Shown: positions 10,000 through 13,532 of the stretch, one piece after another
Layout: each line of letters begins with the position of its first letter
Position numbering within the stretch: the stretch's first letter is position 1
Origin: Candidatus Hydrogenedentes bacterium CG07_land_8_20_14_0_80_42_17
Lineage (GTDB): Bacteria > UBA8481
DNA: 13,547 bases
Assembly (NCBI GenBank): GCA_002780065.1
Contig: PEWQ01000151.1
Span: 1 to 13,547 of the forward strand
Direction of reading: 5' to 3'
Notes under the pieces: generated by a model
Databases searched by the model: none
The model's input: the letters and a program-made list of their open reading frames with translations, nothing else
What the model was told of the DNA's origin: nothing
Program-made: the position numbers and the translations under genes

Positions 10000-12684
10000 A
10001 TGAAATTTATTGAAGATTTAATTCGAAATTCGAAAGCTCCTGCCAGAGTCAGGATGTCTTTTGATAAATTAATTTCAGCCGGCTGTGATTTGACATTGCG
10101 GGTCGGCCTTCTCGATAAGCTCGCGAAGATATTTGAGGTTTCGCGTTTCGCCGCAGACGTGATCAGGAGTTATGATGACGCATGGAATATTTTAGATAAA
10201 TCTTCTTATTCATCCTCAGTAAATAATTTGAGTGATCACGAACTTCTTAGAAAAGATTTGGCTCTATCAATGTTTTACGTTATTGCGGCGGATGTTCTTC
10301 AATTTGTTCCGTTCGAAGATACTCTGAAGATTATCTCCGATTCAGCCGATCGCTCGCTTGAAGCGGCATGGAGAATAGCTAGAGACGAAATGATTCAGAA
10401 ATACGGAAAGCCGGAAGGCTATTCAGAGAATCGAGAAGGTTTTACTATTCTTGGAATGGGAAAATTGGGCGGAAGAGAACTGAATTTTTCCTCGGATATC
10501 GATTTAGTTTTTATTTACCGAAATGACGGCGAATCTTCTGCAGGGAGTCGAGGAAGGCTTTCGAACGCAGAATGGTATTCGAGAGTTTCTGAGCGGATAA
10601 TCGAATTGCTCTCATCGAAATTATTAGGCAACTTCACATACAGAGTAGATATGAGGTTGAGACCTGAAGGCAGAAACAGTCCTCTCGTTCGTTCTTTGGA
10701 TTCTACGCTTCTTCATTACGAAAGCGCCGGGGAGGCATGGGAACGGCAGGCGTTTATTAGGGCTCGTTCTTGCGCCGGAGATTTAGAGTTGGGAAAAAGT
10801 TTTCTGGAAAAAATAATTCCATTTATCTATAAGAGGTTTCTTGATCGAGATGCAGTTTTGGAGATTGAATCGATAAAGCGGAAGATCGAATCGAAGACCG
10901 TTGAAGAAGGACACAGAAACGTAAAACTTTCCGCCGGCGGAATTCGTGAGATCGAGTTCATTGTGCAGATACTTCAGCTGGCAAATGGCGGCAGATGCGA
11001 GGAGGTTCGAACGGCTTCGACTCTGGAGGCGCTCGAACGGCTGGTTGAGAAGAATTACATTATGGATTCAGATAGAGATTTTCTGAGAGAGTCTTATATT
11101 TTTCTCAGAAGAATCGAGCATAGACTGCAGATGCTCGATGGCCGCCAGACTCATCTTCTTCCCTCAGATTCTGCGGAAATGGATTCCCTCGCTATTGGTT
11201 TGGGTTTTTCAAGCGGCGAAGAGTTGTGGGAAAAGTATTTGAATACTGCTATGCGCGTTAGAGAATTTTATGAGAGTAGATTTTCTCGTTCGAAACAGAT
11301 ATCGCTCACTGAATTGGAGATGCAAGTGATGAAAATTCTCGATTCCAATTCTGAATTGGAGTCGAACTCCGAAGAGCTTTTTTCTGCAACAGCGGCAAAG
11401 GAAATCAGAAATATGGCAAAGTCGGGCAACTCCGATTTTCAATCGTCTTCGGCTACTCTTGCCTTTATGCGTTCCGTTCCGGTTTGGCTGCCGATGATGC
11501 AGAAACTACCGGCCATTGATGATTCGCTGAAGAGGCTTTCCAGAATTGTCGAGCGATATGGCGCCAAAACTGCTTTGTATGAAATCATTACCTCTCATCC
11601 TGCAGTTGCAGAAATATTGGTAAACATTACATCGTTGTCTGAACATCTTTCGAATTTAATTTATAAAGACCCTTCTTCTCTTGAAGCACTCCTTTCACCC
11701 GGCGGAGTGACAGGCGAGCGCGAAATATCTTTTCTTCGAGAAAGATTTCAATCGTTCAATAATGTGATTTCAAATTCGGTTAGGTCCGGGATTGCGATTC
11801 GAGTTGAAGAAGAGTTGCGGATCGGAGTTAGATTTATTCTTGCGATGGCTGATGCTCGAAGAACAGGTATTGAACTCTCGAATATAGCAGAGCTTTTGCT
11901 CGGGGAGCATGATTTTGCGATTGCGGCTTTAGGCAGGTTTGGAAGCAGAGATATAGGTTTTACTTCGGATCTTGATATTGTTTTCGTCACGGATGCTCTT
12001 GATGAAACAATTGTAAAGTCGATTCAGAATTTAATGGAGCAATGGCAGAAGACAGGTTTGAAGATAGATACAAGACTTAGACCTTACGGAAGAACGGCTC
12101 CGCTTGTTGTTGGAACAAAGGCGCTGTCCGATTATTTTGAGAAAGACGCGGCGGTGTGGGAACGAATTGCGTGGGCGCGAGCAAGAGTGATATCGAAGAA
12201 TGTAGAACTTAAACAGAAAGTCGAAGATACGATTCGCAGTTTTTTGTTTGAGAAGAGTTTTGGCAGGAAAGAGCTTTTAGAAGTTATTCGAATGCGCAAA
12301 AAACTTTTAAACGAGTCAAGTTCAGATGATGATATCAAGAGAGGAAGAGGAGGTTCTATTGATATTGATTTTCTTTGCTCTGTCAGAAAGATAATGTCGC
12401 ATTCTGAATCGATAGAACCTGAGATATTGCTTAAAGACAAGCCGGAATTAATAGCTGCTTTTCGATATTTGAGGCTGTTGGATATGAGCGCTCAGATCGT
12501 GACGGGCAAATCGTTCAGAGGAAATGAATCTCGGAGCGATACCGAGCGAATAGAGATAATAATGGAAAGACATGGGCAAAGACTTAATGAACTCGGAGCT
12601 TACAGAAAAAAAATAGAGGAGATTGAGATGAATGATGATGTTGAAAAAATTATATCTGAAATGAAAAACAAAATTAACGTCTAA
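10000..12684 (+). CDS. glnE: Bifunctional glutamine synthetase adenylyltransferase/adenylyl-removing enzyme
   Basis: 894 residues, slightly shorter than the E. coli enzyme of about 946. Two nucleotidyltransferase domains of the GlnE type are visible: an N-terminal one with GMGKLGGRELNFSSDIDL (about 152-169, Asp166 and Asp168) and a C-terminal one with GRFGSRDIGFTSDLDIVF (about 645-662, Asp657 and Asp659). Each is followed by its helical region (RLRPEGRNSPLV and RLRPYGRTAPLV, both typical). By family knowledge the N-terminal half removes AMP from glutamine synthetase and the C-terminal half adds it, under control of PII. Both aspartate pairs are intact, though the second motif departs from the usual GKLGGxE. 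There is no good ribosome binding site before the ATG. The stop codon lies inside the attC-like site. Confidence 0.93.
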   Translation: MKFIEDLIRNSKAPARVRMSFDKLISAGCDLTLRVGLLDKLAKIFEVSRFAADVIRSYDDAWNILDKSSYSSSVNNLSDHELLRKDLALSMFYVIAADVLQFVPFEDTLKIISDSADRSLEAAWRIARDEMIQKYGKPEGYSENREGFTILGMGKLGGRELNFSSDIDLVFIYRNDGESSAGSRGRLSNAEWYSRVSERIIELLSSKLLGNFTYRVDMRLRPEGRNSPLVRSLDSTLLHYESAGEAWERQAFIRARSCAGDLELGKSFLEKIIPFIYKRFLDRDAVLEIESIKRKIESKTVEEGHRNVKLSAGGIREIEFIVQILQLANGGRCEEVRTASTLEALERLVEKNYIMDSDRDFLRESYIFLRRIEHRLQMLDGRQTHLLPSDSAEMDSLAIGLGFSSGEELWEKYLNTAMRVREFYESRFSRSKQISLTELEMQVMKILDSNSELESNSEELFSATAAKEIRNMAKSGNSDFQSSSATLAFMRSVPVWLPMMQKLPAIDDSLKRLSRIVERYGAKTALYEIITSHPAVAEILVNITSLSEHLSNLIYKDPSSLEALLSPGGVTGEREISFLRERFQSFNNVISNSVRSGIAIRVEEELRIGVRFILAMADARRTGIELSNIAELLLGEHDFAIAALGRFGSRDIGFTSDLDIVFVTDALDETIVKSIQNLMEQWQKTGLKIDTRLRPYGRTAPLVVGTKALSDYFEKDAAVWERIAWARARVISKNVELKQKVEDTIRSFLFEKSFGRKELLEVIRMRKKLLNESSSDDDIKRGRGGSIDIDFLCSVRKIMSHSESIEPEILLKDKPELIAAFRYLRLLDMSAQIVTGKSFRGNESRSDTERIEIIMERHGQRLNELGAYRKKIEEIEMNDDVEKIISEMKNKINV

Positions 12685-12732
12685 CAAACCAATCCGGCGG
12701 ACGCTAACGCGCCGCCGATTTTTATGTTAGGC
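12679..12732 (+). other. Integron attC-like recombination site
   Basis: The ends are GTCTAAC (12679-12685, fits RYYYAAC) and GTTAGGC (12726-12732, fits GTTRRRY); they pair over 7 bp with one wobble. Between them an imperfect stem forms: 12691-12693 with 12718-12720, 12695-12700 with 12712-12717, 12702-12704 with 12709-12711, loop 12705-12708. C12694 and A12701 stay unpaired, both on the 5' arm, as expected for extrahelical bases that set strand choice in attC. At 54 bp it is close to short known attC sites. The predicted cut is between G12726 and T12727. The glnE stop TAA (12682-12684) is part of the first core. The GC stem followed by five Ts could also act as a terminator, which is the main alternative explanation. 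Confidence 0.75.
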
Positions 12733-12754
12733 GAAATATAGAGAAACTTAACAA

Positions 12755-12771
12755 TGCGTACGCAATATGAT
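12755..12771 (+). promoter_or_regulatory. Candidate promoter -10 and operator of the toxin-antitoxin pair
   Basis: A 10-bp palindrome TGCGTACGCA (12755-12764) stands directly before a TATGAT (12766-12771). The -35 region is weak. A palindrome between -35 and -10 is where antitoxin-toxin complexes usually bind for autorepression, so this is the likely operator. The antitoxin has its own ribosome binding site (AGGT at 12787-12790, 8 bases before the ATG). Confidence 0.4.
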
Positions 12772-12798
12772 ACGCTTGAGATAGAGAGGTGAAATTTG

Positions 12799-13041
12799 AT
12801 GACTACATTATCTGCTACACAGGCGCGCCGGCGCTTATATAAACTACTGGATTTTGCTGCACAATCCCACGAGCCTATACAAATCACCGGAAAACGCCAT
12901 AATGCGGTACTACTGTCTGAAGAGGACTGGCGCTCTATCAAAGAAACTTTGTATTTGCTTTCCATTCAGGGAATGCGCGAATCCATTCAAAAGGGCATAA
13001 AAACCCCGCTCTCAAAATGCAGTAGAATCCTTAAGTGGTAA
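12799..13041 (+). CDS. Type II antitoxin, Phd/YefM family
   Basis: 80 residues. The N-terminal half is a Phd/YefM DNA-binding fold (MTTLSATQARRRLYKLLDFA, then ITGKRHNAVLLSEEDW); the C-terminal half (YLLSIQGMRESIQKGIKTP) is the toxin-wrapping tail. Such antitoxins neutralise the partner RNase and repress their own operon together with it. AGAGGT lies 8 bases before the ATG. The gene overlaps the toxin by 7 bases, a normal coupled arrangement. It lies between an attC-like site and a second core sequence, so it is probably carried on a gene cassette; toxin-antitoxin pairs are frequent in chromosomal integron arrays. Identification is secure. Confidence 0.92.
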   Translation: MTTLSATQARRRLYKLLDFAAQSHEPIQITGKRHNAVLLSEEDWRSIKETLYLLSIQGMRESIQKGIKTPLSKCSRILKW

Positions 13042-13301
13042 ACTGGCAAATAGTCTACACAAAACAAGCACAAAAAGATGCTAGAAAGCTTTCCGCTTTA
13101 GGATTACGCTCAAAAGCAGAACTCCACTTGGAAATCTTAAGGGTAAATCCTTTTCAAACTTCTCCCCATTTTGAAAAGTTAGTTGGTGATTTGGAGGGCG
13201 CTTACTCGCTCAGAATAAATATCCAGCATCGCCTCGTTTATCAAGTTATTAAAGAATTACAAACTGTAAAGATTATCCGTATGTGGACACATTACGAATA
13301 A
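13035..13301 (+). CDS. Type II toxin, YoeB/Txe family mRNA interferase
   Basis: 88 residues with the YoeB/Txe pattern: WQIVYTKQAQKDARKL, NPFQTSPHFEKLVGDLEGAYS, INIQHRLVYQV and the end RMWTHYE. The residues matching E. coli YoeB Glu46, Arg65 and His83 are all present (Glu47, Arg66, His86), so the toxin looks active: it would cleave mRNA at the ribosome during translation. One change is visible: the usual YSRRI reads YSLRI. It starts with GTG inside the antitoxin gene and depends on coupling. The stop TAA is followed within 20 bases by the GTTAGAT core. Confidence 0.92.
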   Translation: MVNWQIVYTKQAQKDARKLSALGLRSKAELHLEILRVNPFQTSPHFEKLVGDLEGAYSLRINIQHRLVYQVIKELQTVKIIRMWTHYE

Positions 13302-13325
13302 CTAAATTTCTAATAATTGTTAGAT
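13300..13325 (+). other. Short attC-like core after the toxin gene
   Basis: GTTAGAT (13319-13325) fits GTTRRRY. It can pair with AAC at 13300-13302 and close a small AT-rich hairpin (13304-13305 with 13317-13318, 13307-13308 with 13315-13316) that leaves T13303 and A13306 unpaired on the 5' arm, echoing the complete site at 12679. It lacks a full RYYYAAC and is far shorter than a normal attC, so it is at most a reduced or decayed site, or a coincidence. The ATG of the next gene overlaps the core. Confidence 0.35.
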
Positions 13326-13532
13326 GAAAAAAGACACTTTGTTATTTATATCCATAACGACGGTTAGTGTTGTATTTGTGGCAGGGATTATGACGGATAA
13401 TATATCTCAGGCTGTTAGCCCCAGGCCGCAGATACCAGTTATAGATATAGCGCAGTTGCTAATGTGATAGGAAATTCAATCGCTCCTCTCAATGACAAAT
13501 ACTGCTTTTTGGTCAGCCATGGTGATGAGTGA
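13324..13532 (+). pseudogene. Small secreted-protein gene with an apparent frameshift
   Basis: An ATG at 13324 opens a 47-codon frame ending at TGA 13465-13467. It starts MKKDTLLFISITTVSVVFVA, a convincing signal peptide or membrane anchor, then DNISQAV. From about 13419 another frame (one base back) becomes open and reads like protein (ADTSYRYSAVANVIGNS, then KYCFLVSHGDE) to a TGA at 13530-13532. Joined, they give an exported protein of about 70 residues. A one-base deletion, a sequencing error, or programmed slippage near the CCCC at 13419-13422 could explain this. Alternatively the 47-residue product is the real gene. Family not recognised. The rest of the window (13533-13547) shows nothing. 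Confidence 0.35.

Follow-up and report, generated by a model that had tools for sequence, protein, structure and literature searches.

How does an integron recombination site (attC) come to sit on the stop codon of a housekeeping gene? The question is raised by a stretch of 13,547 nucleotides (hereafter the window, which is the entire contig C101 of its genome), in which glnE is followed by an attC-like hairpin and a toxin-antitoxin (TA) gene pair. The field has yet to explain how genes acquire an attC, and a housekeeping gene with one at its end would be a candidate intermediate. The first-pass annotation of the window had proposed a cassette in formation, the edge of an old array, or glnE caught inside an array. 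Our evidence from the window favours an array edge over an intermediate; the second of these readings fits best, and we found no positive evidence for the first. Specifically, we consider it probable (roughly 0.75) that the attC forms the left boundary of a small, integrase-less cassette remnant, ordered attC - phd/yoeB - deltaattI, which abuts glnE.

The attC at the end of glnE

The site (positions 12679–12732, + strand) forms a 54-nt hairpin in the order GTCTAAC-AAACC-AATCCGGCGG-A-CGC-TAAC-GCG-CCGCCGATT-TTTAT-GTTAGGC. Its R'' box (GTCTAAC, 12679–12685) and R' box (G|TTAGGC, 12726–12732) fit RYYYAAC and GTTRRRY and pair at 7/7 positions, one G-T pair included. The L'' arm (AATCCGGCGG, 12691–12700) and the L' arm (CCGCCGATT, 12712–12720) pair over 9 bp and leave one extrahelical C (one of C 12694/12695), while a second extrahelical base, A 12701, lies just before the 3-bp apical stem (CGC/GCG) with its TAAC loop. 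Sequence, folds and alignment place both bulges on the R'' arm. The crossover point is presumably between G12726 and T12727, where established integron biology would put it. Folding of the hairpin was better than that of every shuffled sequence, both as DNA (z = -3.7) and as RNA (z = -5.1). The first-pass annotation had called an attC-like site on the glnE stop, with these exact coordinates, pairing cores of this pattern, a 54-bp span and two unpaired bases confined to one arm, and both the model described below and the folds agree with it.

To score the site we used a covariance model of our own (R1), not that of IntegronFinder. R1 was built from 19 attCs with the window site left out; most of these lie beside integron-integrase genes (intI; 400+ bits, TIGR02249) or in multi-attC arrays, and a few come from other loci with relatives of the TA pair. 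In their alignment 88% of cells were paired, and the covariation score was 0.383 vs 0.150 for shuffled alignments and below 0.1 for slid ones. The window attC scored 48.8 bits on the + strand (E = 2.6e-8 in a search of the entire 2.39-Mb genome) but only 8.6 bits on the reverse strand, which settles its orientation, with R'' toward glnE and R' toward the TA pair. R1 also recovered a class 1 integron attC at its exact coordinates (49.4 bits) and matched nothing beyond it in 97 kb of mixed loci. When eight attCs were aligned, one L-arm pair was G-C in the window only and A-U in the other seven, a two-sided change. The box pattern CTAACN{25,55}GTTAGRY occurs at six + strand places genome-wide, and R1 accepts as attC only the window site and one on contig C82; the strict box pattern was not found in viral contigs, and an Rfam search of the window gave no match. 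A heuristic attC finder, since superseded by R1, had equal numbers of matches on reversed and real sequence. Judged by its sequence and structure, we regard 12679–12732 as a genuine integron attC, with recombination by the integrase IntI as its expected function.

The gene that ends in this site is glnE (10000–12684, + strand), which encodes a glutamine synthetase adenylyltransferase of 894 aa (Pfam GlnE, 1.4e-75; GlnD_UR_UTase). Its TAA (12682–12684) lies within the R'' box, and the C-terminus of the protein is not shortened when compared with 20-odd relatives. The first-pass annotation had found this junction unusual on two counts. A stop codon within the core turned out to be ordinary, since 7/28 other attCs examined have one at the same +5 position of R'' (among them that of a 264-aa HNH-like gene in L066), whereas a 2.7-kb housekeeping gene as the neighbour is indeed out of the ordinary. 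What is truly unusual about the locus is the size and housekeeping role of this neighbour, together with a far end that has a deltaattI-like site instead of an attC.

The toxin-antitoxin cassette and its far end

The attC is followed by a cassette leader (12733–12798, + strand), which aligns with those of relatives, a Phd/YefM-family antitoxin gene (12796–13041, +; PF02604, 9.8e-20) and a YoeB/ParE-family toxin gene (13035–13301, +; PF06769, 7.2e-8; PF05016, 2.3e-6). The two families are adjacent and their genes overlap, as in type II TA systems of the Phd/YefM - YoeB/RelE kind. TTAACA-N17-TACGCT in the leader lines up with TTGACA-N17-TACGYT in relatives and may act as the cassette's own promoter.

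A search of 84,980 species genomes returned 23 relatives of the antitoxin, mostly from Candidatus Omnitrophota and 61–84% identical; relatives of the toxin share 57–72 of 88 residues, and no relatives of the TA pair were found in viral contigs. Among the 21 genomes with antitoxin relatives, five have an intI above the TIGR02249 cut-off (403–415 bits). One locus (L056/L095) holds a complete integron, with intI (- strand), attI, a TPR gene, attC, Phd/YoeB and attC. Another (L051), with the antitoxin that is 84% identical, has an attI-like site, the TA pair and an attC that starts a few bases past the toxin stop, and a third (L072) has an R' half-site ahead of the pair. With homologous attC-flanked TA cassettes beside intI, the typical cassette gene pair that the annotation had seen after the site holds up, and by homology we take the window's Phd/YoeB pair to be a real cassette. 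Omnitrophota chromosomal integrons with phd/yoeB cassettes (e.g., JADHWR010000050.1) share a homologous attC scaffold and the TA cassette with the window but, unlike it, include an intI and an attI, and the pair is flanked on either side by normal attCs. Arrays of attCs linked to intI were also seen in Candidatus Omnitrophota loci L096 (G071:C44; ten attCs within 8 kb of intI), L099 and L098, two intI genes being present in some. No paper came up in a literature search for attC, integron and Omnitrophica.

Past the toxin stop no attC was detected, and the TTCTAATAATTGTTAGAT region scored just 8.7 bits as one. Positions 13308–13325 (+ strand) read TTCTAATAATTGTTAGAT, in which an R'' half (TTCTAA) is joined to an attI core (TAATTG|TTAGAT); attI cores of this group mostly read TATATTAATTGTTRRR. 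Although the site is short and lies in AT-rich DNA, 16/18 bases of 13309–13326 are identical to the attI of L095. It is the best attI match on both strands of the window (14.0 vs 7.9 bits for the next), and for its right half the match was better than at any of 27,069 other positions or any of the 22 attC ends tested. The layout attC-ORF-deltaattI is known from class 1 and 2 integrons (PMC12901181), and the part of that paper which cites Partridge 2000 proposes a crossover between L box and R'' as the origin of such cassettes. Likewise, the window has an attC upstream, an open reading frame, and a short attI core with GTTRRRY in place of a downstream attC. We are moderately confident that the window cassette is of the deltaattI type (attC-TA-deltaattI), a reading that depends on a short site of 18 bp; over that length a truncated attC, the alternative, is hard to distinguish from deltaattI. 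The attI-like sequence after the TA pair is confined to this 18-bp core, and a complete attI beside intI was not found. The published deltaattI cassettes have the same order, in which, at R'', a short attI core with GTTRRRY at its end stands in for the attC (PMC12901181), but they lie in mobile resistance integrons, whereas the window combines an environmental (Omnitrophota) attI core with a chromosome in which no intI was detected. The locus thereby probably extends the deltaattI type of cassette beyond class 1 and 2 integrons.

A short ORF (13324–13467, + strand; 47 aa, signal-like) starts inside the R' box of this far-end site and could belong to the next cassette or to host sequence; no convincing relatives of it were found. 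Between 13324 and 13547 the frame that opens within the GTTAGATG box stops after 47 aa and goes on in a shifted frame, so this may be a broken gene. The contig ends at 13547, 246 bp past the TA pair, and the right edge of the remnant presumably lies beyond it.

A second attC and the genome assembly

The genome (G000) comprises 2.39 Mb in 207 contigs and is 87% complete. The first-pass annotation had suggested looking in it for further attC sites and an intI gene: one more attC was found, and no intI. In this 87% no gene exceeded the TIGR02249 cut-off of 265, and the two best candidates (~62 bits) are probably XerC/XerD. Present-day mobility of the cassette is thus unlikely, barring IntI acting in trans or encoded within the missing ~13% of the genome. 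The locus represents a TA cassette in a lineage without a detected integrase.

The second attC (C82:2754–2815, - strand; 32 bits with R1 over the entire genome) immediately follows a YafQ-like toxin gene and precedes a radical SAM gene. The insert (L125, G000:C82, 2565–3601) consists of a YafQ-like TA pair and the attC between a gene that we call gene X and the radical SAM gene, two genes that are adjacent in the sister genome (G001). Copies of a 114-bp direct repeat (87% identical) border it on both sides, consisting of the last part of gene X and the first part of the radical SAM gene. The closest relative of the radical SAM protein is in the sister genome (57% vs at most 45%), which shows that contig C82 belongs to this lineage; with a TA-attC unit on such a contig, contamination is a less likely source of the window cassette.

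A canonical insertion of a cassette at a site outside att sites (attG) would leave a complete attC at its far end. The first-pass annotation had made the same point for insertion at a chance site. The C82 unit has its attC there, in agreement with normal insertion; the window has none there. Such attG insertions, a name used in PMC12901181, resemble the window in that a cassette lies beside ordinary chromosomal genes, but differ from it in that far-end attC.

Positions 1–75 and 102–184 of the window belong to a high-copy intergenic repeat with ~45 near-identical copies in the genome, many of them exactly at contig ends, which is joined to 17-bp tandem units (CGCGTCAATGGACGCTC) and probably explains much of the fragmentation of the assembly. 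A 53-bp end overlap suggested that C82 and C101 are adjacent, with ~15 kb of housekeeping genes between the two attCs. We rejected this as unproven because the overlap is the ~45-copy repeat and the sister genome is unsupportive, with no match to the window's gene cluster within 6 kb beyond its radical SAM gene.

Origin of the junction and comparison with known systems

To account for both ends of the remnant, we propose that the TA pair would have arrived as a cassette, one of a type that today occurs mainly in Omnitrophota integrons. At some point a crossover of its own R'' box with the L box of attI would have excised it from the first position, after which a truncated attI core, not an attC, is expected at the far end of the cassette. 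IntI would have recombined this cassette at the R' box of an attC that was already beside glnE as a leftover of an earlier cassette. Sequence between glnE and that attC would have been lost, or joined, at R'', such that the stop codon of glnE is now the TAA of the box; the simplest route to the fusion would be loss of what lay between glnE and the first attC that remains. We infer the order of these events, the supplier of IntI and the joining of glnE to R''.

The alternative that survives best, although we regard it as unlikely, is insertion in one step: a TA cassette in circular form, carrying a normal attC, would have undergone recombination between its R'' box and the L side of an attI-like site immediately after glnE. 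A single event would then have left the complete attC next to glnE and deltaattI at the opposite end, and an uninterrupted GTCTAATAATTGTTAG after glnE in relatives would fit it. This explains both odd junctions together, the right half of the far-end site is attI-like, and the crossover is the L-box × R'' one that PMC12901181, where it cites Partridge 2000, proposes for deltaattI cassettes. However, the glnE-side flank is not attI-like past the R'' box (-4.2 bits, a usual score for attC left flanks), and an attI beside glnE without intI would itself be left unexplained.

We give little credence to the idea that integrase attached a ready-made attC to a resident housekeeping gene, at its stop codon, via a non-canonical R'' crossover. 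If so, glnE would belong to a cassette that is nascent and still immobile, and would offer a snapshot of attC acquisition by genes. An assembly chimera, in which the glnE contig was misjoined at 12679 to a cassette fragment of another organism (e.g., an Omnitrophota integron), also seems improbable. The cassette part makes up the final ~0.87 kb of its contig, the assembly is fragmented and 87% complete, the TA relatives are mostly from Omnitrophota, and similar attCs hamper the assembly of arrays (PMC9024848), but the second TA-attC unit is on another contig of the bin, next to the radical SAM gene closest to the sister genome, and G+C of the tail is similar (0.40 vs 0.42).

It is very unlikely that glnE is a captured housekeeping gene inside a cassette or array, as the first-pass annotation had also considered. 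The 3' end of the gene does have cassette-gene geometry, but the R1 search gave one match in the window and hence no attC upstream of glnE, no GTTRRRY occurs in the preceding 100 bp, and the gene follows a normal cluster of L21, Prp, Obg, ProB, ProA, NadD, RsfS and a cNMP-binding protein. Obg, ProB, ProA, NadD and RsfS are names that we presume from sequence. The cluster is ordinary chromosome with normal housekeeping genes, and with GlnE intact, glnE is thus best seen as a neighbour of the cassette remnant, not as proven cassette cargo. In the sister genome the contig stops inside glnE. Beside the L21 gene, the window encodes a 453-aa protein (195–1556, - strand) that is apparently a multi-helix membrane protein and has no Pfam match. 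Finally, a plain intrinsic terminator of glnE with a chance likeness to attC is highly implausible: a GC-rich stem followed by ATTTTTAT and a strong RNA fold would suit one, and the hairpin may serve as a terminator in addition, but its sequence-level match to intI-linked attCs, outer R boxes, one-arm bulges and 48.8 vs 8.6 bits speak against it, no similar hairpin follows other genes of the genome (the second attC excepted), the site is absent from the list of a terminator scan, and its attC identity explains the hairpin sequence.

As a cassette remnant beside glnE, the locus exemplifies a known kind well, and both its left neighbour and its right end are uncommon. It resembles clusters of attC sites lacking integron-integrase (CALINs) and lone attCs in having a real attC and a cassette gene without intI (IntegronFinder; PMC9024848). 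It differs in that it adjoins a 2.7-kb housekeeping gene and has one complete attC, which is below the two-attC reporting threshold; of the at least two close attCs that define a CALIN, the contig holds one, with its end limiting the count, and the other attC is on C82. IntegronFinder reports CALINs from two attCs up, single ones can be real, and draft assemblies often split integrons across contigs (PMC9024848); a survey of archaea also left out singleton attCs (PMC9668308). With R1 at E <= 1e-4, an attC was present in 40/241 diverse genomes, in most cases just one per genome, so lone attCs are common and surveys that require two sites will miss many. Lone attCs in unrelated genomes include L114 (G006:C1:148392), L136, L141 and L145, several of which lie in the middle of long contigs; in the last three, the preceding gene ends inside R''.
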